Virus record (IMG/VR): IMGVR_UViG_3300044858_005332
Coordinates: 1 to 31,165 of that record
DNA from: a virus
Length of the DNA stretch: 31,165 nt
Direction: 5' to 3' (one strand)
Shown in pieces: positions 5,850-29,687 of the stretch. A program made the translations under genes and the position numbers. Numbering within the stretch: position 1 is the first letter of the stretch; each line of letters begins with the position of its first letter. The notes under the pieces were generated by a model. That model was not told the origin of the DNA and did not search any database. It saw only the letters and a program-made list of their open reading frames with translations.

Positions 5850-6307
5850 TAGTCTGTCTCCGGGTTTGATTCGGGGTGTACGGGTTTGATGGGCGGCGGG
5901 CGGTGGTCTTTGTCTTCTGTTTCTGGCCCGCCTGCGTCGTCAGGGGTGAAAGTAGGGTCGCCGCCAAAGTTGATGGTCAAGCCGTAGAAGCCTGCGTACT
6001 TCATAGCTTTGCCCAGCAGCGTGTACTCGTTCGGTGAGTACATGGCTGCGAAGGCGTTTTGATGAATAAAGATGTCTTGCGCGCCGGCGCGCTCAGCGTT
6101 TTTGCACATGATGGCAAAACTCGGCAGCATGGTTTCGATTTCTTTTTTGAGCGCAATACGCCGAGACTCCCATACTTGCTTAGAGACGGCTGTCTCTGTG
6201 CCGGCGTTTTCTTCGACGACAACGTCAAGGTCGGCGCCTGCGCGCTCTAAGCGTTTTTTGATTCGCTTTTGCAGTTCTTGCGCTTTCTTTTTCTTGCTCT
6301 GGCTCAT
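5849..6307 (-). CDS. Hypothetical protein with basic coiled-coil-like N-terminus
   Basis: A 152-aa protein: a strongly basic helix at the N-terminus (SQSKKKKAQELQKRIKKRLE), a central region with a predicted alpha/beta pattern, and an acidic Pro-rich tail. I do not recognise it. The ATG at 6305-6307 overlaps the methyltransferase stop (ATGA) and is preceded by an excellent AGGAGG four bases upstream, which rules out the longer start at 6373. Its tight coupling to the methyltransferase makes a shared role plausible. Confidence 0.72.
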   Translation of the reverse strand: MSQSKKKKAQELQKRIKKRLERAGADLDVVVEENAGTETAVSKQVWESRRIALKKEIETMLPSFAIMCKNAERAGAQDIFIHQNAFAAMYSPNEYTLLGKAMKYAGFYGLTINFGGDPTFTPDDAGGPETEDKDHRPPPIKPVHPESNPETD

Positions 6308-7863
6308 ACTGCCTCCTGAATAACGCCGCTGTTGACCAAGTCTTGAAAATACGTAGCGAAAAACGCGTCGCATAGTTGCTGCATGACTTCAATGCGTTCT
6401 TGCGAGTCGGTTATTTTTATGCCGCGTTTTTTCAGTTCTTGTCCCGACTTGTCGACATGTTGCGCGACACGCTGCGCTAAATTTTCGTGGCCGCCGGTGT
6501 GAAGTTCGTGCAAAATTAGCGCGTTAAAATCGCTCAGGTTGTGTCCGGTGCCTGAAAGCGCGCTGGCCATGGCTACGGCGCGGCCCGCCAAAATATTGGA
6601 ACCTAGCATGTGCACGTTTAAAGGGTTGTTTAATTTAATTTTATTTGTGGCGCGCAGCTTTTTTTCTGTCGTAATTGATTGCGCCTCTAATTCAAAAACA
6701 CCAATGCACACCCCCACATCTAACGCGCTTACAATTTCTTCTGCGGTAATTGTTCCCCAGTCTCGGGCGGCTAACACTTCGGATAAGCGCATGCCTTTTG
6801 TCAGCAGCAACCCGGCTAACCCTTCGTATACAGGACCTTGCGCTTTTGCTGTGACCAGTCCCAATGTTGCGGTAAAAGGGAATTTTGTTTCTGGGTTGGA
6901 AAGCCGAAAGTAAAAGTCATCTGCGTTCTTCAAACGCGCCTCTAAGGACTTCATTGGCTGCGGGTCTCGCCCGTAAATGTCCCATCGAAACGCGGTGTTG
7001 GCGCAGAAGTCTTTATGTGTTTCAATAACGTAACGGTCTACAGTCGTGCTGAATAAGTTTTTAAACTCGGGTCGCACGCACAGGTCCCAGAAGTTTTCGT
7101 GTGGCGGCAAGCTGCCCACAAACTCTAGACCAGCCCGCTTGAAGTCGTCAGCAACTTCGTAAAAATAGAATGTATCCCAGTGCTGATTAAGATATTCGTG
7201 CGCTAAGTACCGAGGATTCTGCTGGACAAACAGCGCTACTTTTTCGCAGACCATGGGGTTGTCTTCGAAGTATTGCGCTTTGTTGTCGCGAATATATTTT
7301 AGGTACTTGAGTGCTTCGGTGATGCGTTGTATGCTGTCGCCAGAGCGGCGCAGGGCGTACTGCTGAAGAATTGCACGAATTGGCTGAAGCGCGGCCCAGC
7401 CCGGCATGGCGTTGTAAGAGACCAGCAGCAGGCCGCCTTTAGCTAGTCTTTTTTTGGCTATTTCTACAATGTCGTTGCGCACTTCTGCCGACACCCAGCT
7501 GTAGACGCCGTGCAGCGCAATAAAATCAAACTCGCCAATATCGTCCGGCAGTTCGCTAAAGCTGGCGGTAAGAATTTTGGCGTTTGTTAATCCGCTGGCG
7601 GCAATGTCTTTTTCGATAATTGCGGTGTGGTTTGGATTGAAGTCAACGCCAGTAAACTGGCCGTGTGGGTTTGCGGCCGCCAGCGTGGTCAGGCAACGCC
7701 CAAGACCGGAGCCAAGTTCGAGGTAGCGAAAAGCTGGCTTGTTTGGCGGCGGTACGACGCGGTTAAGTGCAGCAATATAGCGCAAACAAATTGGCGCCAT
7801 ATTGCCGTAAAAACCTGGGACGTACTCTACGTCTGAGATATAGCCGTTGCCGTTCGCGTCCAT
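6304..7863 (-). CDS. SAM-dependent methyltransferase with methyltransferase-regulatory domain
   Basis: A 519-aa protein. Residues about 45-155 form a class I methyltransferase core: motif I is YLELGSGLGRCL (47-58), the acidic residue that binds the SAM ribose is D74 in TGVDFNPNH, and a post-core strand carries FDFIALHGVYSWV. The segment after GGLLLVSYNAMPGWA, around residues 200-300, resembles the regulatory domain that follows the core in the bacterial MethyTransf_Reg family. The C-terminal 200 residues include a helical domain. The substrate is unknown; this family is not the usual DNA base methyltransferase and has no DPPY-type motif. AAGGAG lies six bases before the ATG. It is unusual cargo for a phage. 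Confidence 0.82.
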   Translation of the reverse strand: MDANGNGYISDVEYVPGFYGNMAPICLRYIAALNRVVPPPNKPAFRYLELGSGLGRCLTTLAAANPHGQFTGVDFNPNHTAIIEKDIAASGLTNAKILTASFSELPDDIGEFDFIALHGVYSWVSAEVRNDIVEIAKKRLAKGGLLLVSYNAMPGWAALQPIRAILQQYALRRSGDSIQRITEALKYLKYIRDNKAQYFEDNPMVCEKVALFVQQNPRYLAHEYLNQHWDTFYFYEVADDFKRAGLEFVGSLPPHENFWDLCVRPEFKNLFSTTVDRYVIETHKDFCANTAFRWDIYGRDPQPMKSLEARLKNADDFYFRLSNPETKFPFTATLGLVTAKAQGPVYEGLAGLLLTKGMRLSEVLAARDWGTITAEEIVSALDVGVCIGVFELEAQSITTEKKLRATNKIKLNNPLNVHMLGSNILAGRAVAMASALSGTGHNLSDFNALILHELHTGGHENLAQRVAQHVDKSGQELKKRGIKITDSQERIEVMQQLCDAFFATYFQDLVNSGVIQEAV

Positions 7864-15106: not shown

Positions 15107-15143
15107 AAAAAAAGAGGGCACCGAGTACGCACTCGATGCCCTC
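15107..15143 (-). terminator. Strong Rho-independent terminator
   Basis: On the minus strand a hairpin (15143-15114) with arms GAGGGCA and TGCCCTC extended by CGAGT/ACTCG (one bulge) is followed at once by seven T residues (15113-15107). It lies after the exported-protein gene (stop at 15174) and is the best terminator of the window. It stands only 14 bases before the next start codon. Confidence 0.88.
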
Positions 15144-15173
15144 CGTGGCAACTAGATTTTGTTACGGACTAAA

Positions 15174-15524
15174 TCACCGACGAGACGGGCGATAAACCGT
15201 GCGGGCAGTGTTGCGCTTGACGTAGCCGCCGAGCAGCCGCGGTCGGCACGACTCAGACACCGACTCCTCTACGTCGTACAGCCGGCAATCAGGCGTCGCG
15301 CAGCAACGATCGTTGCGGCAGCGTGGCTTGCTGACCACGACGACTTCTGAACTCGCCGGAGCGGCTGGCGTGACGACGACAGGCGTCGCGACTTCCGCGG
15401 CAGAGGCATCCGCAACGGCGGGCGGCTTCTGGCCGTGATTAAGAACACTGGGCATCTGGGCGGCATCCTGCCCGAACACCAGACTGCACGCGCTGAAAAT
15501 CAAAGTAGTAAAAACAAAACGCAT
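15174..15524 (-). CDS. Small exported Cys-rich protein with signal peptide
   Basis: A 116-aa protein with a clear N-terminal signal: MR, a hydrophobic core (FVFTTLIFSACSLVF) and a likely cleavage after FGQ or before it. The Cys in FSAC is a less likely lipobox. The mature part has an Ala/Pro/Val-rich linker (residues about 40-65), then a Cys cluster (CRNDRCCATPDC, then SCRPR) and a basic Tyr/Arg end. It should act in the periplasm or outside the cell. GAGG lies about five bases before the ATG at 15522-15524. It has its own terminator downstream. Reminiscent of small exported proteins of planctomycetes, but unassigned. Confidence 0.75.
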   Translation of the reverse strand: MRFVFTTLIFSACSLVFGQDAAQMPSVLNHGQKPPAVADASAAEVATPVVVTPAAPASSEVVVVSKPRCRNDRCCATPDCRLYDVEESVSESCRPRLLGGYVKRNTARTVYRPSRR

Positions 15525-15545
15525 CGTAACCTCTTCCTTGGTTAT

Positions 15546-15561
15546 GCGATCTTTTGATCGC
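15546..15561. other. Perfect inverted repeat in the leader of the exported-protein gene
   Basis: GCGATC and GATCGC arms surround TTTT. On the minus strand it falls in the 40-base leader between the stop at 15565 and the ATG at 15524. No T-run follows, so it is more likely an RNA stem that affects stability or translation, or a protein site, than a terminator. Confidence 0.45.
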
Positions 15562-15564
15562 GGT

Positions 15565-15939
15565 TCAATCATCCCAATCATCACGATCATCATAGTCCGG
15601 CTCGACGTACATTTGATCGAGGCCGCACGCTTCGATTTGTCGCTTGAGTTTTACGTCGTCGTGTAGCAACTCCATAAACCAAGCTGAAATAGCATTATCT
15701 TGTTCTTTTGTCGGTATCTGTGTGGTGTCTTCGAGCAGTGGGCGGAATTCGCGGCAACGCGCCCCTACGACTTCCGTGTGCGGCGGGCAACCTTCGAATC
15801 CGGGATCATACTCGTTTCCGATCGCGGTCGGTTCTCCCGGATCGTAATCGAATTCCACGTCAAATTCAAACTCGGCCGGTATGCCGAGCGGATTTTCGCC
15901 GTTTTCGTCCTCAATTTCCCACTGAATCCAGTTTGTCAT
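15565..15939 (-). CDS. Acidic hypothetical protein
   Basis: A 124-aa very acidic protein (Asp and Glu throughout; ends DYDDRDDWDD). It has a beta-like start (WIQWEIEDENGENP), a FEFDVEFDYDPGEP stretch and two Cys near the middle (GCPPHTEVVGARC). No family recognised. Its ATG overlaps the upstream stop (ATGA), preceded by AGGCG. Confidence 0.65.
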   Translation of the reverse strand: MTNWIQWEIEDENGENPLGIPAEFEFDVEFDYDPGEPTAIGNEYDPGFEGCPPHTEVVGARCREFRPLLEDTTQIPTKEQDNAISAWFMELLHDDVKLKRQIEACGLDQMYVEPDYDDRDDWDD

Positions 15940-16199
15940 GGTTGCGCCTGTACGTGTTCTACGCGCATCCTTGCGTTCAGCCAGCGCTCTTCGGCAGCGA
16001 GGGCGGCGGCTCTAGATTCGAATCCTGCCATCATAGGTCCGCCAACCGGAGAGAGGTCAGCATACCATTTTCCGGGATTGTGCGGGTCGGGCTCGACGTG
16101 GCTGGCGCGCTTGATGTCCAGCTGGCCCAATGCCGCGAGAGATATGTGTTCGCCGTACAGGCACTGCGCTGAACCGTCTGGGCGAAAATACAAGTTCAT
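15936..16199 (-). CDS. Small phage accessory protein
   Basis: An 87-aa protein with LGQLDIKRASHVEPDPHNPG, then WYADLSPVGGPMM and a C-terminal helix (ESRAAALAAEERWLNARM). The RAS.VEP and ADLSPVGGP segments recur in small phage proteins; no function is known to me. Coupled by ATGA to both neighbours. Confidence 0.7.
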   Translation of the reverse strand: MNLYFRPDGSAQCLYGEHISLAALGQLDIKRASHVEPDPHNPGKWYADLSPVGGPMMAGFESRAAALAAEERWLNARMRVEHVQAQP

Positions 16200-17179
16200 A
16201 CGCCGGCCTCTTCAAGTCGTTGTACCCGCCGAACTGGAGCATTGGCAGCCAGATAATTTGCTCGCGGCGCAGCCGGTGCCATAGCTGTTGGCATTGCGCG
16301 GCCGCTCGCTTGTAGCTGTGCTGCTTCCAAAAATTGTATTAACTCGGCGCGCGACGCAAATCGTCGGTGATGCATAACGATATTGCCGCCAACTGTAATA
16401 GTTTCGTCGGAAGGCGACACGCCTACCGACAAACTACAATTAACCGCTACGGCGTGTCGGCGAAATTCAATAGGAAACCAAACATGCGATCGATCAGCAA
16501 TAATTGCATTTTCATATACGCGAATTGGTTTGGCTATCGTCAGAGTATTACGCAACTGGCTGCCGCTCAATACTTGCGCAAAACCGTCAAGCAACACATA
16601 ACCTTCAACTATTGAGTTAATTACCACGCAATTTGCCGACATAATTGACGTGCCGCTGAAACTGCTACGAATCAGCAGGGCCGAGTTACGTACAATTGCC
16701 TGATCTCTTAATGTGCACGACGTGACTTGCGCAGAATCTTGCACAACAGACGCGCCAAACATGCGCGTTGAGCCTGAGATATGCGCGTTTCCAAACACGC
16801 GAGCCGATTCTGCAATAACTGCCTGATCGCGCACTACTGCGCGGCCATACACGTGCGCGTGATGTTTTATGACGACTTCTCCGGTCACGGTGGCGTTGCC
16901 GGAAACTTGCGCCCAGCCTTCCAGCCGAACGTCGCCGCCCACGTACGCGTTGTCGAACACCTGACAGCGAGAACCAACATAAACGCTGTTTTCGACGACA
17001 GCGGTACTTGCAACCCAGCCTTTGCCGTTTTCGTGGCGTCGGGCCGGGACGCGTCCGCGGCCGTCTTTAAAATCGTGTTTTACTTCGCGCTTTTTTCTGG
17101 TCTTGATAGGCTTTATATCAGCTTCCAATTGCACAATTGGAGGTTCTGTTACCAGATTTGTTTCAGCCGTAGCCGTCAT
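16196..17179 (-). CDS. Left-handed beta-helix (hexapeptide-repeat) protein
   Basis: A 327-aa protein. After a basic N-terminal tail (KTRKKREVKHDFKDGRGR), residues about 55-220 consist of imperfect six-residue repeats with aliphatic residues at every sixth position (VYVGSRCQVFDNAYVGGDV and similar), typical of a left-handed parallel beta-helix as in acyltransferases and in YdcK-like proteins. I see no catalytic His in the usual acetyltransferase loop context with confidence. A C-terminal Ala/Pro/Arg-rich tail follows. In a phage it may be a structural or binding protein, or an acyltransferase. The ATG at 17177-17179 lies just after the previous stop; a TTG two codons earlier is possible. Confidence 0.8.
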   Translation of the reverse strand: MTATAETNLVTEPPIVQLEADIKPIKTRKKREVKHDFKDGRGRVPARRHENGKGWVASTAVVENSVYVGSRCQVFDNAYVGGDVRLEGWAQVSGNATVTGEVVIKHHAHVYGRAVVRDQAVIAESARVFGNAHISGSTRMFGASVVQDSAQVTSCTLRDQAIVRNSALLIRSSFSGTSIMSANCVVINSIVEGYVLLDGFAQVLSGSQLRNTLTIAKPIRVYENAIIADRSHVWFPIEFRRHAVAVNCSLSVGVSPSDETITVGGNIVMHHRRFASRAELIQFLEAAQLQASGRAMPTAMAPAAPRANYLAANAPVRRVQRLEEAGV

Positions 17180-17181
17180 TC

Positions 17182-18126
17182 TCAACCCATGGGAAGCACA
17201 CGCCGGCGCGGTGCATTGGTGATCAGGTTATTCAGCGCCGTTTTTACAGTCGTCATTTGTTGCGACAGATTGCGCCGCAAATCGTCGTTCGTCCGCAGTT
17301 CCTTGGCCTCGACGCCAGCGACAAGATCGCTTGCCTGACGAATAAGCCCCTCCAGCTGCGCGTTCGAGCGCACATTCATGCGGCGGAAATTTTCGTAGAA
17401 CTCTTTGAAGTTCTCGATCGCTGACGCCTTGAACGTCTTCTTGGTGCCGTCCGGCTCGTCAGTCAGACGTTCGATCAGGTGCGCTACCATCTCCTGCAGC
17501 TGTTCAGCAAACGCGTTCTCGGCCATGATGACCGCGGTTTCAAAACGTCGCTGAATCCGGGTTTGCTCCTGCGTGTACAACTCCGGATTAAACGTCATCA
17601 GGTAGTTCGGCGGCTCGACCGGCGGATACTCCCACTTGATGTCAAAGACGCCTTCAAGGGTAGGCGGGTAATCTGCGGGGTTAAACAGGTCGCCCAGTTT
17701 CTCCCGCGCCGCTTCCTTGATGGACTCGTACTCCAACTGCAGGTTGGAGGCCGCTGCGGAAAGTTGCTCCTTGAACTCCCGCATCTTTGCTTCAAATGCC
17801 GCAATATCGTCCTGCTTGATTAGCCGGATACCCTCCTGCGGATACGGCAGGGTCATGCTGCGCCAATAACTAGACGCCTGACTCTTGAGTGCAGTCAGGG
17901 TGCGATACGTGGCGTTCTTGGTGTCGATCAGCCGCTTGGACGCCGTGACTAGATCGGTGGCGGCGTGGAAAGTATCCGCCGCCTGCTTGGTCTGCAGGTC
18001 GGACAACTTGCGCTGCGTGCCAAGCCAAGAGAAAGACAACTTTACCGCGCCCATCGTCTGGCGCAGTTCGTCAGCCGTCTCTACGACACCCTGATTCGCT
18101 GTGTCAACGTCAATCTCTGTTGCCAT
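17182..18126 (-). CDS. 314-aa helical protein near the AAA module
   Basis: A 314-aa mainly helical, coiled-coil-like protein: long helices at about 15-70 and 100-145, a Pro/Tyr-rich central segment (KWEYPPVEPPNYLMTFNPELY) and further helices to the end. It has no Cys and no catalytic motif. Its make-up resembles conserved proteins of unknown function found near AAA ATPases in phages and bacteria, but I cannot name a family. AAGGAAG directly precedes the ATG. It follows the AAA ATPase by two small genes, so it is a candidate substrate, adaptor or partner. Confidence 0.75.
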   Translation of the reverse strand: MATEIDVDTANQGVVETADELRQTMGAVKLSFSWLGTQRKLSDLQTKQAADTFHAATDLVTASKRLIDTKNATYRTLTALKSQASSYWRSMTLPYPQEGIRLIKQDDIAAFEAKMREFKEQLSAAASNLQLEYESIKEAAREKLGDLFNPADYPPTLEGVFDIKWEYPPVEPPNYLMTFNPELYTQEQTRIQRRFETAVIMAENAFAEQLQEMVAHLIERLTDEPDGTKKTFKASAIENFKEFYENFRRMNVRSNAQLEGLIRQASDLVAGVEAKELRTNDDLRRNLSQQMTTVKTALNNLITNAPRRRVLPMG

Positions 18127-18409
18127 CTTCTTCCTTTTGTTTTCTTTGTTTCGCGACTATTAAAGTCAGTCTGGCCACAGCCGCGGCGTGTTCTGGATGA
18201 TTAGTGTCTTCGACCGGGTCTGTTTTTTCTCGCCACTCGCCGCAGCGTGTTGTCCACGGGTGGTTGATATACGGCTGGTCCCAATACGCGCAATCGTCGC
18301 CGTTGTCGTCTTTGTATTTTTCTTTAACGCTCGGCGGAAATCGTTCGCAATCCATAGATAATTCGTCGTAGAAATCGCAAAGCGCGCAGACCTTTGAAGT
18401 GTCTGACAT
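18110..18409 (-). CDS. Small Cys-rich, possibly zinc-binding protein
   Basis: A 99-aa protein with five Cys in the first 56 residues: CALC (8, 11), C21, C40 and C56, plus a His nearby, so one metal site is likely. The rest is acidic and then helical (EHAAAVARLTLIVAKQRKQ). GAGGA about eight bases upstream supports the ATG at 18407-18409. It overlaps the 314-aa gene by 17 bases. No family recognised. Confidence 0.68.
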   Translation of the reverse strand: MSDTSKVCALCDFYDELSMDCERFPPSVKEKYKDDNGDDCAYWDQPYINHPWTTRCGEWREKTDPVEDTNHPEHAAAVARLTLIVAKQRKQKEEDGNRD

Positions 18410-18412
18410 GTA

Positions 18413-18703
18413 TTAATCCTCGGACTGTGCCAGCCCGTACTTGCGCATCTTCTCGTCCCAACCGACGTACTCACCTTCACGGCGTTCTTTTCGCCCGAGT
18501 TTGGCGACGCCGGCATCAATGGCTTCTGGCGTGGCTGGCAACGTTATGTCGATTACCTGATCGTCAGAAATGACTTCAATGAAATCCTGAAACGGCTCCC
18601 ATTGATCTTTCTTAATTCGGACCATGGTGACCGTACCCAGCCCGTTCGGATAAATAATTAAAGCCTCGCCGGCTTCTTGCAGTAGTTTTTCTGTGTGCGT
18701 CAT
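18413..18703 (-). CDS. Hypothetical protein
   Basis: A 96-aa soluble alpha/beta protein (LLQEAGEALIIYPNG, FIEVISDDQVIDITLP, then a basic helical end KLGRKERREGE). No family recognised. The gene lies after the AAA ATPase gene with a 53-base spacer that carries an 18-base palindrome. Confidence 0.62.
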   Translation of the reverse strand: MTHTEKLLQEAGEALIIYPNGLGTVTMVRIKKDQWEPFQDFIEVISDDQVIDITLPATPEAIDAGVAKLGRKERREGEYVGWDEKMRKYGLAQSED

Positions 18704-18719
18704 TCGCTCTGAACCCTAT

Positions 18720-18737
18720 TTTCACTACGCAGTGAAA
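18720..18737. promoter_or_regulatory. 18-base palindrome between the AAA gene and the next gene
   Basis: TTTCACT and AGTGAAA arms with a four-base centre form a perfect inverted repeat in the 53-base spacer after the AAA stop codon. On the minus strand it is not followed by a T-run, so a terminator is unlikely. It would suit a repressor operator or an RNA stem that separates expression levels. Confidence 0.45.
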
Positions 18738-18756
18738 CTGGGCTTATCTGTGAGAA

Positions 18757-20253
18757 TCAGTTATCGGACGCGGACGGCGCGGCGATCTTACGGCGACCCG
18801 TTGACGGGACCGCTGCGCGTGGCTTTCCCACGCGTGTGTACAGTCCCGTATTATCAGCTGACAGGCAACGGCCCTCGGCCCACTTTCTCAGGTGCTCAAT
18901 CTGCTCGGCGCTCGTGATAGCGACAGGCACGACGTTCTGGGCCGCCTCGACGAGCGGGATGTCCAGCAGAGCCGCAAGACGGCAGCACGCCTTGACCTCG
19001 GCGCCGGTCCAGTTCGTATCGTCAGGACGCTGCTGCGCCTTGTCGATACCGAAATGGTTTAGATAGATATCCCAGATACGCTGACGCTGCTCGTCGCCGG
19101 GCAGGTCAACGAAGAACACGCCGTCGAAACGCTCGGCTCGGGCGAACGGTGCCGGAAGCTGGCTGGCGTCGTTGCAGGTGCCGATGAAGAACACGTCCGA
19201 CGTGTGGTCGTTGAGCCACGTCAGGAGCGTACCGAACAGGCGCGCCGAAACGCCGCTGTCGGTCTGCCCGGACGACCCAACGCCCGCCAGACCCTTCTCG
19301 ATCTCGTCGACGAAGAGCACGCAGGGCGCCATGGCGTCGACCTGCTTGAGGGCGCGGCGCATGTTACCCTCGGACTCACCGACGAACTTGCCCATCAGGC
19401 TGCCGAAGTCGAGCATGACCGTGGGCCGGCCGACTTCGTTGCCCAGCGCCTTGGCAAACTGAGACTTGCCGCAGCCGGGAGGAGAAAGCAACAAAACGCC
19501 CTTGGGGCGCTTGTCGACGTTCTTCTCGCCCTGCCGCCGCATAGCGCGGATGCAGAACTGCTTGAGGTTTTCGAGGCCGCCCAGATTCTCGAAGTTTGCG
19601 TCGCCGCGATACAAGGTCATCGTGCCGCTTTTTTCGAGCGTCTGCGCCTTGATACCCCAGATCGTGTCAGCTTCCAGCTTGTTGTGCCGGACCAGCGACA
19701 GCGCATAGGCGTTCTCGGCCTCCTGCCGAGTCAGGCCGCGGCTGGCGTCGACGACGTGATTCACCTGCTCTTCGGTCGGCTTCTCAAACGCCGAACCCTC
19801 GGCAAATAGATCGTTGCAGATCGTCTTCAGCTGCTGCTCGTCTGGAAGCTCGTGATGCACCACAGTGAACAGCTTCTCGACCTCGGGCTGCAGCGAAACG
19901 GTTGGGGACACAATGATGACATAACGGCCCTCGCCCTTGCCCTGCACGACACGATTTGCCAGCGCCTGCACGACCTCGGGATTAGGGAGATACCGGTGAA
20001 AATTCTTGAGGACGAGAATCTGAGTCTCGTTCGTCTTGGGCATATCCATCGAGCGGATCGCCTGCAGCGGGCCGGGAGCCTGCGTGACGCCGGAATAAAG
20101 CTGACGGTCGATGTCCCAGACGTCAAAGCCCCACTTGCGCTCTTCGGCGACCTTGCGGATGGCGGCGACGGCGTCGTCGCACTCCATCGTTTCTACCCAT
20201 ATGCCGGAAAAGCCGGCGCAAACGAGTTCTTTAATTTCTTGTTCGAGCGACAT
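18757..20253 (-). CDS. AAA+ ATPase of the Ycf46-like family
   Basis: A 498-aa protein. Residues 1-200 form the non-ATPase domain typical of Ycf46-like proteins (EIKELVCAGFSGIWVET, then VWDIDRQLYSG); 215-400 are the AAA+ core: Walker A SPPGCGKS (257-264), Walker B CVLFVDEIEK (311-320), sensor 1 N361 in GTCND, and Arg finger candidates R372/R375 in ARAERFD. A hexameric remodelling ATPase is expected. Cyanobacterial Ycf46 is linked to CO2 use, but the role in phages is unknown. AAGGGG upstream supports the ATG at 20251-20253. DUF2997 and DUF1257 genes lie directly upstream. Confidence 0.9.
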   Translation of the reverse strand: MSLEQEIKELVCAGFSGIWVETMECDDAVAAIRKVAEERKWGFDVWDIDRQLYSGVTQAPGPLQAIRSMDMPKTNETQILVLKNFHRYLPNPEVVQALANRVVQGKGEGRYVIIVSPTVSLQPEVEKLFTVVHHELPDEQQLKTICNDLFAEGSAFEKPTEEQVNHVVDASRGLTRQEAENAYALSLVRHNKLEADTIWGIKAQTLEKSGTMTLYRGDANFENLGGLENLKQFCIRAMRRQGEKNVDKRPKGVLLLSPPGCGKSQFAKALGNEVGRPTVMLDFGSLMGKFVGESEGNMRRALKQVDAMAPCVLFVDEIEKGLAGVGSSGQTDSGVSARLFGTLLTWLNDHTSDVFFIGTCNDASQLPAPFARAERFDGVFFVDLPGDEQRQRIWDIYLNHFGIDKAQQRPDDTNWTGAEVKACCRLAALLDIPLVEAAQNVVPVAITSAEQIEHLRKWAEGRCLSADNTGLYTRVGKPRAAVPSTGRRKIAAPSASDN

Positions 20254-20272
20254 GTAGTCCCCTTGTGGTTGT

Positions 20273-20464
20273 TCAGTTCTGGGCTTCAATCTGCTGCTCG
20301 TTGGCGGCAGCGTAGTACTCACCGGTCAGCGTCTCATCGACCTTGGCGCCCAGCGCCTGCTCCAACGCCCGCGTGGCATCCTGACACGAGCTACCGCTAA
20401 ATCCGCTCGTCTCGATCTTGGTCTCGCCCTTGTTATTTACGATTACCTGAATGGTCTTAGACAT
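20273..20464 (-). CDS. DUF2997 family protein
   Basis: A 63-aa protein with the DUF2997 layout: a strand pair (KTIQVIVNNKGETKIETSGFSG) followed by CQDATRALEQALG and a short acidic end. It is usually found next to DUF1257 and Ycf46-like AAA genes in cyanobacteria and other bacteria, as here. GGAGG lies nine bases before the ATG. The biochemical role is unknown; the constant association suggests it acts with the ATPase. Confidence 0.85.
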   Translation of the reverse strand: MSKTIQVIVNNKGETKIETSGFSGSSCQDATRALEQALGAKVDETLTGEYYAAANEQQIEAQN

Positions 20465-20468
20465 GTAA

Positions 20469-20834
20469 TCAAGCCTCCACAGTGATGTTAAGTTTAATCG
20501 AACCGTCGGGCAGCGTTTCCTCGTACACCGAGTACCCGCCCTTTTGAGCCTCGTAGATCGCTTTCTCTACGGCATAGGCTTGAAGGAACTTATCAAGCTC
20601 TTCCTGCTTACCCCAGTTGCCGTTGTAGTTGTCGTACGCGGCCTCGCCGGTATCGACATTGAATACGGCCGCGTACGACCAGCCGGGAAGCTTTACGGCC
20701 AGACCATCGGCAGACTGACCAGCGAACAGAACGTGGTGACCAGAAACGGGCTGCGCAAGGCCCAGCCGCCGGCAGGCAGCGTAAATAGCGTTAGCGTCGC
20801 GAACTTCGGTTTTGATTTGAACGATGTGTGACAT
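20469..20834 (-). CDS. DUF1257 family protein (Ycf35-like)
   Basis: A 121-aa protein with the DUF1257 / Ycf35 pattern: MSHIVQIKTEVRDANAIYAACRRLGL at the start, a central KLPGWSYAAVFNVDTGEAAYDNYNG segment, then WGKQEELDKFLQAYAVEKA and a C-terminal strand. Found in plastid genomes and cyanobacteria as ycf35. Four bases separate it from the DUF2997 gene. No function is established to my knowledge. Ribosome site weak. Confidence 0.88.
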   Translation of the reverse strand: MSHIVQIKTEVRDANAIYAACRRLGLAQPVSGHHVLFAGQSADGLAVKLPGWSYAAVFNVDTGEAAYDNYNGNWGKQEELDKFLQAYAVEKAIYEAQKGGYSVYEETLPDGSIKLNITVEA

Positions 20835-20846
20835 GATTTTTGTTGG

Positions 20847-21143
20847 TTAGCAGGTGACGACAACTTCAGCGGTAGTCTCTACCCAAACGTGGGCGCCGCA
20901 ACTTAGCGGCTTTTCCGGCGAATAAACAGCTGTAGCCGGACCGTGTATATCTACTTTTTCTACGGGATATGACTTATTCCGCCATTGAACTGTGATAACG
21001 TTATTTCGTTCACCGGTGGTTTTGTTTCGGCGAATCGTGTGTTGGTTGACGTGAATACGTTTAATAGTGCCGCGGCGCATCGTGATGATGTTGCCGGGTT
21101 TGAGTTTGGTTCGCCGCACAAGACGGCATACGGGCGTCGGCAC
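20847..21143 (-). CDS. Small basic hypothetical protein, GTG start
   Basis: A 98-aa protein, basic in its first half (RLVRRTKLKPGN, then RIHVNQHTIRRN), beta-rich afterwards, with two Cys. The frame has no suitable ATG, but a GTG at 21141-21143 is preceded five bases away by AGGAGG, a strong argument for this start. The longer frame to 21206 would lack a ribosome site. It is the first gene of the DUF1257/DUF2997/AAA unit, after the hairpin at 21209-21264. No family recognised. Confidence 0.7.
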   Translation of the reverse strand: MPTPVCRLVRRTKLKPGNIITMRRGTIKRIHVNQHTIRRNKTTGERNNVITVQWRNKSYPVEKVDIHGPATAVYSPEKPLSCGAHVWVETTAEVVVTC

Positions 21144-21208
21144 AGCGGCCTCCTGTGTGTTGCTGCCAGAAGGGGAGCAACGAGCGCTTGGGCTCCAGAA
21201 AAGCATAA

Positions 21209-21276: not shown

Positions 21277-22143
21277 TCAGCTGCCGAACGTCTGCGACAA
21301 CTGCGCAGCCGCGGTCAGGATGCGCTCGGCGTCCTTGAAGGACCCGCCGCAGGCGCCTACGAACGCCTCAGCAGCCTGCAGCTGCTCCATGGGCACGCGG
21401 AAGCCGTTGGTGGCCGGCTTCGCCTTCCCAGCGATCTTGGCAGGCGTAGCCGGCTTAGCCGCCGGCGGCTCGACATTGCGCTTCGCACTTTTACCGGCCG
21501 CCCGGATTTTATCTCCGTCAGCCGTGGCGGCAGTCGGGGCAGCTGACTTCTTGCCGCGGGGCTGGCCGCCAAGGCCGGCTTTCTTGAGCAACTGACTGAC
21601 CTGAGCCGGACTGACCGTCAGCTTGCGCTTAGCCAGCGACTCGACGATGTCTTTGCCGCGGAGGGAATCGCCGCTCTTCTGACGGCGGGTAATCTCAGCG
21701 CGGACATGATCCGACAAACTCATCTTTTCAGACATGGAACTCTTCCCTCTAGTTGCGGGGATTTCTTTGTCCCCATCTTCTTCGTCGTCAGCCACGGCGG
21801 TGACAACCTCTGCATCGTCCTCGGCTTCTTCATCGGCAGTATCCGATGCGTCGCCTTCTTCTGCGTCGTAATCCGGCTCTTCGTCGTCTTCGCCCGCGTC
21901 GGGTTCGGCGTCGGTGTCAGTTACGACAGAAGCTGTTTCCGCCTCGATGACCTCCAGTTCGTCCTCTTCGGCGTCTGCGGTGGCCAACTCAGCGTCTACA
22001 TCAATGTCATCTTCCGTGACGTCATCATCGTCGTAGGTCATAGTCCCTTTAACCTTTTCCTCGGCATTGTTTTGCGGCGCAGCCGACTTGAGCGGCTTGC
22101 CCCACAACTGTGTCGGACTTACGAGTCCGAGCTTCTTTGCCAT
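21277..22143 (-). CDS. Acidic/HTH-like protein of planctomycete type
   Basis: A 288-aa protein in three parts: a highly acidic low-complexity segment (residues about 38-128), a basic HTH-like block (141-192, with GKDIVESLAKRKLTVSPAQVS), an Ala/Lys/Pro linker, and a small helical C-terminal block (VPMEQLQAAEAFVGACGG). The HTH-like block plus helical end resembles conserved proteins I know from Planctomycetota, where it is presumed to bind DNA. AGGAGA lies four bases before the ATG at 22141-22143. Hairpins flank the gene on both sides, so it is likely expressed on its own. Confidence 0.75.
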   Translation of the reverse strand: MAKKLGLVSPTQLWGKPLKSAAPQNNAEEKVKGTMTYDDDDVTEDDIDVDAELATADAEEDELEVIEAETASVVTDTDAEPDAGEDDEEPDYDAEEGDASDTADEEAEDDAEVVTAVADDEEDGDKEIPATRGKSSMSEKMSLSDHVRAEITRRQKSGDSLRGKDIVESLAKRKLTVSPAQVSQLLKKAGLGGQPRGKKSAAPTAATADGDKIRAAGKSAKRNVEPPAAKPATPAKIAGKAKPATNGFRVPMEQLQAAEAFVGACGGSFKDAERILTAAAQLSQTFGS

Positions 22144-22160
22144 GACGTTCTCCTTTTGTG

Positions 22161-22190
22161 CTCGCGAGACTCGACCGTCGAGTTTGCGAG
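22161..22190. other. Stem-loop in the 5' leader just upstream of the ribosome site
   Basis: Arms CTCGC/GCGAG enclose inner arms ACTCGA/TCGAGT with a three-base loop. The Shine-Dalgarno of the 288-aa gene begins about eight bases after the stem. It may mask or space the ribosome site, or act as an operator at the DNA level. Confidence 0.5.
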
Positions 22191-22200
22191 GCACTTGTTT

Positions 22201-24325: not shown

Positions 24326-24520
24326 CTATTTCCGCGATTTTGCGATTGCGGCAAAGACATGACCGAGAAACACAAACCCGAACCGAATTAGGGCAATGAC
24401 AGAATTGAGCATAATCGACATAATCAGATTAATGCTGTCTTCAAGCCACTGCAATTCCGGTTCTGGTGCAGTGTTATTTCGGCCCCGGTGCGAGCCCGTG
24501 CGATACCTGTAGTTACCCAT
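24326..24520 (-). CDS. Small membrane protein, divergent from terminase
   Basis: A 64-aa protein: a basic hydrophilic start (NYRYRTGSHRGRNN), then a long hydrophobic stretch (INLIMSIMLNSVIALIRFGFVFLGHVFAAI) that could form one or two membrane spans, and a basic tail. AGGTG five bases upstream supports the ATG at 24518-24520, which directly abuts the terminase ATG on the other strand. Function unknown. Confidence 0.65.
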   Translation of the reverse strand: MGNYRYRTGSHRGRNNTAPEPELQWLEDSINLIMSIMLNSVIALIRFGFVFLGHVFAAIAKSRK

Positions 24521-26446
24521 ATGGCACCTGATAATACGCAGGTTGAACCTGCTAATAACTCAGCGCAGATTGAAATACCCAACGTAGGTATTCAATCGTT
24601 GCTGGAAGAATTGGTGTCTATCGACACCAAAGATCAAAAGTCTATGCAAGCACGCATGGGCGTGTTAGGTGCACTTGCACGACAAAATGTTTTTCCGTCG
24701 TTAGAGCCGCTGTTGCCGCTTGTTTTGAATCTGAACGGAAAGCCTTACACGCTTCATAATCATTACCCGTTTTCTCCTCTTTTTAGGTGCCTTACCCCTA
24801 AAAATCAGGTGTGGTGTACGGGACGACAGGTGTCTAAGTCAACCAGCCTAGCAGCGCACGGCGTGGTGGTGGCAAACTCGATTCCGTTTTTTAAGACAAT
24901 GTTTATTACACCGTTGTATGAGCAGATTCGGCGTTTTTCTAACAACTATGTGCGGCCCTTTATTGACCAGTCGCCGGTGAAGAACCTGTGGTCCGGCACG
25001 TCGACTGAAAATTCGGTATTGCAGCGTTCATTTAAAAACAACTCAATGATGTTGTTCAGTTTTGCGCTGCTGGACGCAGACCGTGTTCGTGGTGTGTCTG
25101 CGGATCGTGTGTGCATCGACGAGGTTCAGGATATGGACCCGGATCACGTACCGATCATTCAAGAAACGATGTCTTATAGTAAATGGGGAACCATGTATTT
25201 CACCGGAACCCCGAAGACCTTCGACAATTTAATTTACGGTTTGTATAAACGTTCATCGCAAGCGGAGTGGTTTATTCCTTGTCATGCATGCGGCAAGTGG
25301 AACATACCGTCTTTGGAGTACGACCTTGATGCTATGATCGGACCTTGGACGCCGCACATCAGCGAAAAATATCCCGGCACTGTTTGCGCGAAATGCCAAA
25401 AGCCGATCAGCCCGCGGCACGGTCGGTGGGTGCATAGGTATCCGGAACGTCGGTGGCAGTTTTCTGGGTATCACGTACCGCAAATTATTTTGCCGCTGCA
25501 TTTCTCGGACGCTGAGAAGTGGTCTACGTTGCTACTGAAGCGCGAAGGCTTTGGCAACATGACTCAGGCCCAGTTTTACAACGAGGTTATGGGCGAAAGC
25601 ATTGACACCGGCCAGAAGCTAATTAGCGAGACTGACTTGAAGGGTGCGTGCATTTTGCCGTGGGAGAACAAGAAAGAGCCGGACCCTAAAGCGTACGACA
25701 AGCTACAAAGGTACAAAAACCGCGTTTTAGCGATTGACTGGGGCGGTGGCGGAGAAGAGGGTGTCAGCTTTACGGCAATCGCTGTACTGGGGTTTTTACC
25801 CGACGGAAAAATTGAAGTGCTGTGGGGCAAACGCTTACTCATCGGCGGTGATCATCTACAGGAAGCTGTAGAGTGCATGAAATGGTGCAACAAGTTCAAG
25901 TGCGATTTGGTGGCGCACGATTACACTGGCGCCGGCACCGTTCGAGAGACCGTGATGGTGCAAGCTGGTTTTAATCTGGACCGCGTAATGGCGATGCGGC
26001 TAGTGCGATCTGCGTCGCAGGACTTGATGGTGTTTAAACCGCCGACCGAGATTAATCACCGGCAGCACTACAGCCTAGATAAAACACGGTCGCTACTGTA
26101 CACATGCCAAGCGATCAAGCTCAAGCAAATTCGTTTTTTTCAGTACGACTGGTCGTCGCAAGACTCGCCCGGGCTTATTGCAGATTTTTTGGCGCTCGTT
26201 GAGAACAAGGCTGAATCGCGTCTTGGCGGCGATATTTACACTATTACGCGTAACACGCTTCTTAGCGATGACTTTGCGCAGGCGGTCAACTTGGGCGTGT
26301 CGGCCCTGTGGCACGTCAATCAGGCGTGGCCCAATTTTGCGCGCATTGCCGGTGTGGCGCGGATTACAGAGCGCCAAGCTGCGGCCGAGCGGGGCGATAA
26401 CTGGGCTGACGACGCAATCGGCGATCAGTATTTTTCGGGCTACTGA
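24521..26446 (+). CDS. Phage terminase large subunit (GpA-like type)
   Basis: A 641-aa packaging motor and DNA-cutting nuclease. ATPase: Walker A-like GRQVSKST (101-108), Walker B VCIDEVQD (197-204), coupling motif TGTP (228-231). A four-Cys module (CHAC 254-257 and CAKC 289-292) is inserted as in lambda GpA-type large subunits. Nuclease: D406 in LAIDWGGG, D466 in AHDYTGAG, and a C-terminal DDF. It drives DNA into proheads at the portal. It is the only plus-strand gene of any size. The ATG at 24521 gives a normal N-terminus but lacks a Shine-Dalgarno; a GTG at 24488 would add 11 residues. No small subunit gene is next to it. Confidence 0.95.
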   Translation: MAPDNTQVEPANNSAQIEIPNVGIQSLLEELVSIDTKDQKSMQARMGVLGALARQNVFPSLEPLLPLVLNLNGKPYTLHNHYPFSPLFRCLTPKNQVWCTGRQVSKSTSLAAHGVVVANSIPFFKTMFITPLYEQIRRFSNNYVRPFIDQSPVKNLWSGTSTENSVLQRSFKNNSMMLFSFALLDADRVRGVSADRVCIDEVQDMDPDHVPIIQETMSYSKWGTMYFTGTPKTFDNLIYGLYKRSSQAEWFIPCHACGKWNIPSLEYDLDAMIGPWTPHISEKYPGTVCAKCQKPISPRHGRWVHRYPERRWQFSGYHVPQIILPLHFSDAEKWSTLLLKREGFGNMTQAQFYNEVMGESIDTGQKLISETDLKGACILPWENKKEPDPKAYDKLQRYKNRVLAIDWGGGGEEGVSFTAIAVLGFLPDGKIEVLWGKRLLIGGDHLQEAVECMKWCNKFKCDLVAHDYTGAGTVRETVMVQAGFNLDRVMAMRLVRSASQDLMVFKPPTEINHRQHYSLDKTRSLLYTCQAIKLKQIRFFQYDWSSQDSPGLIADFLALVENKAESRLGGDIYTITRNTLLSDDFAQAVNLGVSALWHVNQAWPNFARIAGVARITERQAAAERGDNWADDAIGDQYFSGY

Positions 26447-28887: not shown

Positions 28888-28960
28888 AGCCGGCGGCCGG
28901 GATCGAACCGGCGACAGGCAGTTTACAAAACTGCTACTCTACCAACTGAGTTACGCCGGC
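28888..28960 (-). tRNA. tRNA-Thr (anticodon TGT)
   Basis: A complete cloverleaf on the minus strand: acceptor GCCGGCG/CGCCGGC (perfect), D-stem ACTC/GAGT, anticodon stem GCAGT/ACTGC with loop TTTGTAA (anticodon TGT, reads ACA), and T-arm GCCGG-TTCGATC-CCGGC. CCA is not encoded. Its first ten bases are also the end of the preceding protein gene, including that gene's TAA stop. Confidence 0.95.
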
Positions 28961-29223
28961 GGGTTGGCTTGTTTTAACTCGTTAACGTGTTTAACTATAT
29001 CGTCAAAGCATTTTTCGCACAAAATAGCGGAATAGCTTTCGCCGTCTTTACGGCTGAAGTAACCCCATGTGGCGCTGATGGTGCCGTATTCGAAATCGCC
29101 GTCTTCGTGTAACTCTTGATCGGCGTCGTAATCACGAGCGTGTTCGTTTTTACAGCTTGTGCCGCACACGTCGCAGCAAATGTCGACGAGCACGCGGGCC
29201 TGTCTGGTTTTGTATTTCTTCAT
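28951..29223 (-). CDS. Zinc-binding small protein
   Basis: A 90-aa protein with Cys pairs in ICCDVCGTSC and LCEKCF, enough for one zinc site. Between them is an acidic stretch and FEYGTISATWGYFSRKDGES, a pattern seen in small bacterial and phage proteins of unknown function. The ATG at 29221-29223 overlaps the previous stop (ATGA). The coding sequence ends inside the tRNA gene: its last three codons plus stop overlap bases 1-10 of tRNA-Thr. Confidence 0.74.
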   Translation of the reverse strand: MKKYKTRQARVLVDICCDVCGTSCKNEHARDYDADQELHEDGDFEYGTISATWGYFSRKDGESYSAILCEKCFDDIVKHVNELKQANPPA

Positions 29224-29687
29224 GCTGACTCCTGTGCTATTTGCACGGGCCATACGTACGGTAGGTCGGTCGGCTCTTGCCAGCCAAAACTGGCGTAGTG
29301 CCAGAAGTCTTTTCGCAATAAATTGCTGCGGTGACTCGCATGAAACTCTGCGTCGCCAAACCAAGCCGGGTATCGATTAGCAGAAATGGTGGGGCGAAGG
29401 CGGTTGTACGCTGTTGTGAACTCGCGCCCTAACTGATCTTGGAATCCTCGCGCCGCCCATTCGCGGCAGACGACTATTCCGTATACCAGTAGGGCGACCT
29501 CGTGTTCAGCCCACATCAAAACTGCAGGGTGGTTTTGCCATCCTTTTTTGCCCGGCTTGTGCGCGCCAATCGGCACGCCTCGGCACAGCAGAATTTGCTT
29601 GCACTCAAGACGCTGTTTTCCAAGCCTCTTGTTGTCTAGGCACCTAGCCGACTCCCTAAAGCTCGGGAGCGGTAGGAATGTTTGCAT
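29220..29687 (-). CDS. Pyrimidine-dimer DNA glycosylase-like protein (MSMEG_6728 type)
   Basis: A 155-aa protein. The N-terminus MQTFLPLPSFRESARCLDNK and the RLGKQRLECKQIL helix match the MSMEG_6728 group of the pyrimidine-dimer glycosylase (endonuclease V, DenV) family; further matches are GWQNHPAVLMW and FHASHRSNLLRKD near the end. If active it would recognise damaged bases, but this group is hardly characterised, so the substrate is open. It lacks a clear ribosome site and follows the poly-Asp gene after two bases. Confidence 0.76.
   Translation of the reverse strand: MQTFLPLPSFRESARCLDNKRLGKQRLECKQILLCRGVPIGAHKPGKKGWQNHPAVLMWAEHEVALLVYGIVVCREWAARGFQDQLGREFTTAYNRLRPTISANRYPAWFGDAEFHASHRSNLLRKDFWHYASFGWQEPTDLPYVWPVQIAQESA

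Follow-up and report, generated by a model that had tools for sequence, protein, structure and literature searches.

The AAA+ ATPase Ycf46 and the small proteins DUF1257 (Ycf35-like) and DUF2997 have no agreed function, despite a range that extends from plastids to phages. In the described cyanobacterial cluster, the DUF2997 and ycf35 (DUF1257) genes adjoin the ferredoxin gene fed7, in the order DUF2997-ycf35-fed7 and without an ATPase gene (PMC4284462). Here, we analyzed a 31-kb virus record (IMG/VR record IMGVR_UViG_3300044858_005332, positions 1 to 31,165; the window, meaning this whole stretch of 31,165 nucleotides [nt]), which carries these three families together with a 314-amino-acid (aa) helical protein that profile and fold comparisons identify as a divergent homologue of DUF3150, a family that elsewhere accompanies MoxR-type AAA+ ATPases and VWA proteins. 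The original prediction for this locus had proposed a phage-borne Ycf46/DUF1257/DUF2997 module, which our analysis upholds: the AAA, DUF2997, DUF1257, 314-aa and hexapeptide genes that it named are all present. The gene order in the window is DUF1257-DUF2997-AAA, however, and differs from that of the described cyanobacterial cluster, contrary to what had been claimed. A literature search for a phage Ycf46/DUF1257 module found no paper, DUF3150 was unmentioned in the literature searched and DUF1257 and DUF2997 were mentioned seldom; each family is already known by name, and it is the link of two AAA+ systems through DUF3150 that appears new.

The 314-aa protein and its neighbouring ATPase

These comparisons make the 314-aa protein a homologue of DUF3150 that lies outside the present PF11348 model: neither Pfam nor PHROG assigns it a family, and PF11348 gives nothing at E <= 1. 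A tblastn search retrieved DUF3150 proteins from plasmids of Ca. Manganitrophus (E 3e-34) and of Burkholderiaceae. The Manganitrophus protein itself passes PF11348 (35.3 bits, cut-off 24.9), and a profile built from MoxR-linked DUF3150 proteins only matches the window protein at 7.5e-30. Its predicted structure consists of long helices and a small sheet (predicted local distance difference test [pLDDT] 88), and Foldseek ranks a protein annotated as DUF3150 first among its viral matches (E 7e-16, probability 1.00). A weak Foldseek match of DUF3150 was found in phage Dylan (probability 0.98, E 3e-3), and hhalign was negative both for the candidate DUF3150-like proteins of Corndog-type mycobacteriophages, Pseudomonas phage SM1 and Rhizobium phage L338C and for the gene upstream of the AAA gene in plasmid pRA1. 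No solved structure akin to DUF3150 or DUF1257 was found by sequence or fold.

The ATPase (PF00004, E 1.9e-27) can be aligned over its full length with relatives encoded on plasmids, by cyanobacteria and by further phages (20 relatives aligned). Its C-terminal half contains Walker A (SPPGCGKS), an aromatic pore loop (KFVGESE), Walker B (FVDEIEK) and an arginine finger (RAERFD), and these intact motifs are preserved in nearly all of the 40 viral lineages described below. No Walker A motif is present in the N-terminal half, which from its pattern looks like a degenerate second domain; the presence of both this domain and an active-type AAA core places the protein in the Ycf46 type. Translation very probably starts at ATG 20253, which is preceded by a Shine-Dalgarno-like sequence, rather than at GTG 20322. 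In several related loci the AAA gene is interrupted at its Walker B codons (FVD^EIEK), namely in L105 (6954-7741), L102, L103, L104, L119, L020, L021, L024, L058, L068, L081 and L091; in L105, Rfam identifies the insert as a group I intron (RF00028, 72 bits), and all four inserts that were translated (L102, L104, L105 and L119) contain an HNH-endonuclease-like open reading frame (ORF). Mobile introns prefer conserved sites in important phage genes, and an intron at the conserved Walker B site thus suggests that the AAA protein matters to these phages. A different rearrangement occurs in Tunturiibacter phage Tunturi_3 (L002, 7719-9314), where the core segments are swapped and Walker B (IIWYDEIEKGF) stands ahead of a P-loop-like GVPGVSKS; a search for further AAA relatives with this swapped order found none.

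DUF2997 scores 57.6 bits in Pfam (cut-off 24.1), whereas the DUF1257 protein alone reaches 21.3 bits, just under the cut-off of 22.2, and its identity is clear in a profile built from relatives that include above-cut-off members. The DUF1257 model has an alpha/beta fold (pLDDT 88.6), for which structure comparison against the PDB gave no match.

Linkage of the four families was assessed up to about 6 kb from the AAA gene in 80 IMG/VR loci picked by AAA alone and two genome loci found via DUF3150, which together represent 40 lineages at 55% identity. DUF1257 neighbours the ATPase in 30/40 lineages, DUF2997 in 27/40 and DUF3150 in 23/40. Where present, DUF3150 is invariably encoded on the strand of the AAA gene, at a distance of -111 to 3,901 nt (median about 450 nt), and nine gene orders occur; an iterated match in L152, a putative 24th lineage, was not confirmed by a whole-record search and was dropped. 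For 27 viral records and six named phages that have the ATPase but no adjacent DUF3150, searches of the entire record likewise detected no DUF3150 at any other position. List-free clustering of the neighbouring genes gave almost only AAA, DUF1257 (21), DUF3150 (20), DUF2997 (13), a primase (4) and an NrdG-like radical SAM gene (4), and recombination genes (bet, exo, Rad52, RadC), considered as a steady partner, occurred in some loci only. The suggested partnership of the 314-aa gene with the ATPase is therefore supported by recurrence in unrelated phages. The beta-helix gene, which had been proposed alongside it, neighbours the ATPase in 1/40 lineages, the window's own, and is thus a lineage-specific extra and no core part (hexapeptide match 28.4 bits, cut-off 27). 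The 87-aa family is a possible fifth component: it has homologues near the module in 11/40 lineages, and its gene is the next one after DUF3150 in Manganitrophus and at several loci of Nitrospirota.

DUF3150 (23 lineages) and the radical SAM gene (5 lineages) are never found in one locus (hypergeometric chance of no overlap about 0.009) and so look like alternatives; other AAA-DUF1257-DUF2997 modules have a 4Fe-4S or radical SAM protein in place of DUF3150. Some large viruses, for instance, carry the NrdG-like gene instead of DUF3150, between DUF2997 and DUF1257 (L137, 6561-7808; L133, 8401-9860). A ferredoxin or 4Fe-4S partner comparable to fed7 was absent from the ten block proteins scanned with Pfam, and such a partner is not universal in these modules. 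The AAA, DUF1257, DUF2997 and DUF3150 proteins very likely form one functional system.

Motor exchange and the C-terminal tail

The four-gene set is also found beyond viruses, on Ca. Manganitrophus plasmids and a Desulfovibrio piger contig. DUF3150 occurs in 32/395 Desulfobacterota genomes, and the loci examined there comprise ten of the Ycf46-DUF1257-DUF2997-DUF3150 type, three MoxR-DUF3150-VWA loci (DUF2201 type) and sixteen that combine a CbbQ/NorQ-type MoxR with DUF3150, with a CobT-like VWA protein detected in all but one of the sixteen; none of these loci held both motor types. Similarly, no MoxR AAA and VWA genes stood beside DUF3150 across the 40 AAA-anchored viral lineages, and whole-record searches, which used single-sequence queries of limited sensitivity, found neither in 11/12 related or similar viral records; the twelfth, G038, yielded a MoxR match and a marginal one to VWA elsewhere in the record. 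In Nitrospirota, 18/22 loci are of the Ycf46 type, several consisting of AAA and DUF3150 alone. The CbbQ/CobT-linked type is present on 1,129/72,556 plasmid records, 969 of them conjugative and including Klebsiella and Escherichia plasmids. The conjugative IncA plasmid pRA1 carries a Ycf46-DUF1257-DUF2997 set without DUF3150 (L050, 5947-8107) about 55 kb from a MoxR/bet/exo/DUF3150/VWA set (L173, 829-8294), and on a Pseudanabaena plasmid (L051, 592-6536) the DUF1257/DUF2997/Ycf46 set lies in a chaperone context, after grpE and a gene of the Hsp70 family. Phage 'cobaltochelatase' CobT/CobS pairs were considered as DUF3150 carriers and set aside, since the annotations of SSU5, ICP2 and RHph_X66 show no separate DUF3150 gene either within the pair or next to it.

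A maximum-likelihood tree built from 76 DUF3150 proteins places the CbbQ/CobT-linked members in one clade (100/100) and the MoxR/DUF2201-linked members in another, with the Ycf46-linked members between and around both and the window lineage close to the MoxR/DUF2201 clade (97/95). A single MoxR/VWA-linked group was rejected (p-AU 0.019) in a topology test made after removal of nine rows (longest branches and near-copies), and the motor labels need two changes on the tree, the minimum for three states. As the MoxR/VWA groups are split by Ycf46-linked members, the motor beside DUF3150 changed at least twice. One protein, L142, falls in the MoxR/DUF2201 clade yet adjoins a Ycf46 AAA gene, and its tail ends in NRKFA.

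The tail itself tracks the motor type. R308, in the disordered (low-pLDDT) C-terminal tail, is the sole invariant column in an alignment of 40 DUF3150 sequences, and R-x-hydrophobic occurs within the last 15 residues of 49/51 Ycf46-linked, 0/17 CbbQ/CobT-linked and 3/8 MoxR/DUF2201-linked proteins. CbbQ/CobT-linked tails are acidic and proline-rich with a terminal aromatic residue (W or F in 16/17), and MoxR/DUF2201-linked tails mostly have neither form. In Nitrospirota, a phylum unused in finding the pattern, the arginine motif lies just past the last helix in 16/17 Ycf46-linked tails by inspection (13/17 by each scripted form), and the sole CbbQ/CobT-linked protein ends in LF. NorD contacts the NorQ ring via a pore-penetrating finger and its C-terminus (PMC13036017), and by analogy the sequence pattern suggests that the DUF3150 tail docks the protein on the AAA ring, a proposal to which we give an even chance.

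A candidate remodelling machine and its alternatives

We favor as probable the interpretation that the window encodes a mobile-element Ycf46-type AAA+ remodelling machine with DUF3150 as its tail-held adaptor or constant client and with the motor swapped elsewhere. In such a machine, the ATPase would form the motor ring, DUF1257 and DUF2997 would be its small accessory subunits, and the DUF3150 homologue would be a dedicated adaptor (or constant client) gripped through the disordered tail and its invariant arginine. By pulling on DUF3150, the ring would remodel or mature a target that benefits the mobile element, whether phage, plasmid or integrated, with the element's DNA replication, recombination or maintenance as the most plausible setting; elsewhere, a MoxR-type AAA+ and a VWA protein would drive the same job. 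Of this scheme, the analysis shows the components, their linkage and homology, the change of motor on the tree and the agreement of tail with motor type, and infers the assembly of a ring, binding via the tail and the target. A target specifically in replication or recombination is suggested by the bet/exo/DUF3150/VWA neighbours in pRA1, primases and a Rad52-type gene directly preceding the Ycf46-type Desulfobacterota locus L223, itself next to integrase-like genes, and we offer it tentatively, as somewhat doubtful. A broader proposal, in which we place slightly less than even confidence, is that DUF3150 may be the constant part of a family of mobile-element machines with an interchangeable motor (Ycf46 with DUF1257/DUF2997, or MoxR with VWA), the choice being written in the tail (R-x-hydrophobic, versus a terminal aromatic residue for CbbQ/CobT).

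Several observations weigh against this interpretation. The ATPase occurs without DUF3150 in 17/40 viral lineages, so that DUF3150 is not obligatory. The DUF3150 tree has long branches and its exact placements are unsure. The tail motif is short, such that shuffled tails match at 47% (17% for a stricter form), was spotted post hoc, and has counts inflated by related sequences; given its length and the manner of its discovery, the tail pattern is a strong lead and not proof. The evidence for a replication or recombination target is confined to scattered neighbours (bet/exo, Rad52, primase).

Among the alternatives, DUF3150 could be a plain substrate of an AAA+ unfoldase, such as a phage toxin or regulator that the unfoldase restrains, comparable to SgiAT or IetAS. 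A conserved disordered C-terminal tail beside a pore-loop AAA protein is the expected look of a threaded substrate, PADLOC IetA models match the ATPase, and the SgiT antitoxin has been described as Ycf46/SpoVK-like (PMC10954446). However, the IetA match covers the AAA core only (54 bits versus the NCBI cut-off of 510), no subtilase is present among the scanned neighbours, and the persistence of DUF3150 with VWA proteins elsewhere suits an adaptor at least as well as a substrate, which makes this explanation unlikely. Still less likely, in our view, is a role of the module in the insertion or repair of metal or iron-sulphur cofactors in the manner of NorQD or CobST, with DUF3150 or the radical SAM protein contacting the target enzyme. 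MoxR/VWA pairs do insert metals (PMC13036017, PMC9976466), and both fed7 beside cyanobacterial DUF2997/DUF1257 (PMC4284462) and the iron-sulphur proteins that replace DUF3150 in other modules would fit, but the scanned proteins of the window block include no iron-sulphur or metalloenzyme gene, and the phage CobT/CobS pairs that we examined have no separate DUF3150 gene.

The original prediction itself suggested that the phage might use the module to counter a host function or to replace one, a reading that we extend to host defence. The module is indeed phage-borne and accompanied by lineage-specific extra genes; yet the same set is found on plasmids and integrated elements, a spread at least as compatible with a role in the service of the element as with a host-directed use, and models of defence and anti-defence families matched the block proteins only at the AAA core (IetA) and, weakly, at a coiled-coil-like stretch of the helical protein (ZorA), so that we regard a host-directed role as improbable. 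That the genes are mere neighbours in a conserved phage genome, not working together, is very improbable, for although their order is simply inherited within the window's own lineage, the linkage survives gene-order changes across unrelated phages, plasmids and bacteria.

Should a tail-held DUF3150 be driven by interchangeable motors, the function of Ycf46/DUF1257/DUF2997 and that of phage and plasmid MoxR/DUF3150/VWA sets would be one. The DUF3150 link ties the Ycf46 set to the better-understood MoxR/VWA remodellers and gives it a first testable mechanism, with R308 as a residue to mutate and Tunturi_3 as an isolated model phage with all four genes. Since CbbQ/CobT-linked DUF3150 is carried by so many plasmids, the answer also bears on plasmid biology.

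The gene block and its comparison with described systems

The module belongs to a co-directional minus-strand block (22194 to 15174) of overlapping or nearly touching genes with a terminator at its end (Table 1), transcribed in the order 305-aa acidic, 119-aa, DUF1257, DUF2997, AAA, 96-aa, 99-aa, 314-aa, hexapeptide, 87-aa and two small genes. As had been predicted, the 314-aa and beta-helix genes lie downstream of the ATPase in the same direction, but the 96-aa and 99-aa genes intervene between the ATPase and the 314-aa gene. Block order is unchanged in close IMG/VR relatives, in which the AAA and 314-aa proteins are 63-95% identical, and the block ORFs are therefore genes. The window also encodes a large terminase (24488-26446), whose closest matches are from phages of 181-188 kb (28-32% identity), and near relatives of the block are found on contigs up to 205 kb.

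Table 1. Features of the minus-strand gene block, in order of transcription (window coordinates)
Feature	Coordinates	Strand	Basis
305-aa acidic protein, weak winged-helix match; opens block	21277..22194	-	Pfam scan, comparison with relatives
119-aa protein, phrog_8676; kept near block head within lineage	20847..21206	-	
DUF1257 (Ycf35-like), 121 aa	20469..20834	-	Pfam, relatives' profile, AAA neighbourhood, predicted fold
DUF2997, 63 aa	20273..20464	-	Pfam, AAA neighbourhood
Ycf46-like AAA+ ATPase, 498 aa from ATG 20253	18757..20253	-	Pfam, alignment, motifs
96-aa protein, in part of lineage only	18413..18703	-	
99-aa cysteine-containing protein	18110..18409	-	
314-aa helical protein, divergent DUF3150 homologue; proposed AAA adaptor or client	17182..18126	-	tblastn, profile, Foldseek
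DUF3150 C-terminal tail, residues 305-314 (APRRRVLPMG in part), including R308; proposed AAA-docking motif	17185..17214	-	
YdcK-like hexapeptide beta-helix protein of 329 aa, lineage-specific; start overlaps DUF3150 gene stop	16196..17185	-	
87-aa protein, possible further component	15936..16199	-	
Two overlapping small genes (124 and 139 aa), block end	15174..15939	-	
Intrinsic terminator, 14-bp stem and T run; closes block	15113..15144	-	

Outside the block, the window carries a 519-aa methyltransferase with a MethyTransf_Reg domain (6304-7863; 72.7 bits), an unusual phage cargo, a T4 DenV-like pyrimidine dimer DNA glycosylase (29220-29687; Pyr_excise, 68.7 bits) and a tRNA-Thr (TGT) gene on the minus strand (28888-28960).

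Compared with described systems, IetAS and SgiAT, which pair an AAA+ protein with a subtilase, resemble the window set in the AAA core only, and differ in the low score of the window ATPase against the NCBI model and in the S8 protease that is missing among its scanned neighbours. Operons of a CbbQ/NorQ-type MoxR, a PF11348 DUF3150 and a CobT-like VWA protein (pRA1, Desulfobacterota) share DUF3150 beside an AAA+ protein, but have a MoxR-class AAA, a VWA partner and a DUF3150 whose acidic tail has W or F as its last residue. Burkholderiaceae plasmids and cyanophage MinM2 carry MoxR-DUF3150-VWA (DUF2201) operons, which likewise place a homologous DUF3150 beside an AAA+ protein on a mobile element, and differ in their AAA+ family, in their VWA partner and in having neither DUF1257/DUF2997 nor the R-x-hydrophobic-x-hydrophobic tail. 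The Ycf46/DUF1257/DUF2997 set of cyanobacteria, plastids and bacteria matches the window in that DUF1257 and DUF2997 adjoin the ATPase and in the full-length similarity of the ATPase itself (e.g., 30% to a Pseudanabaena plasmid protein beside DUF2997); unlike these sets, the window set is phage-borne and has a DUF3150 homologue where others have a ferredoxin or radical SAM protein.

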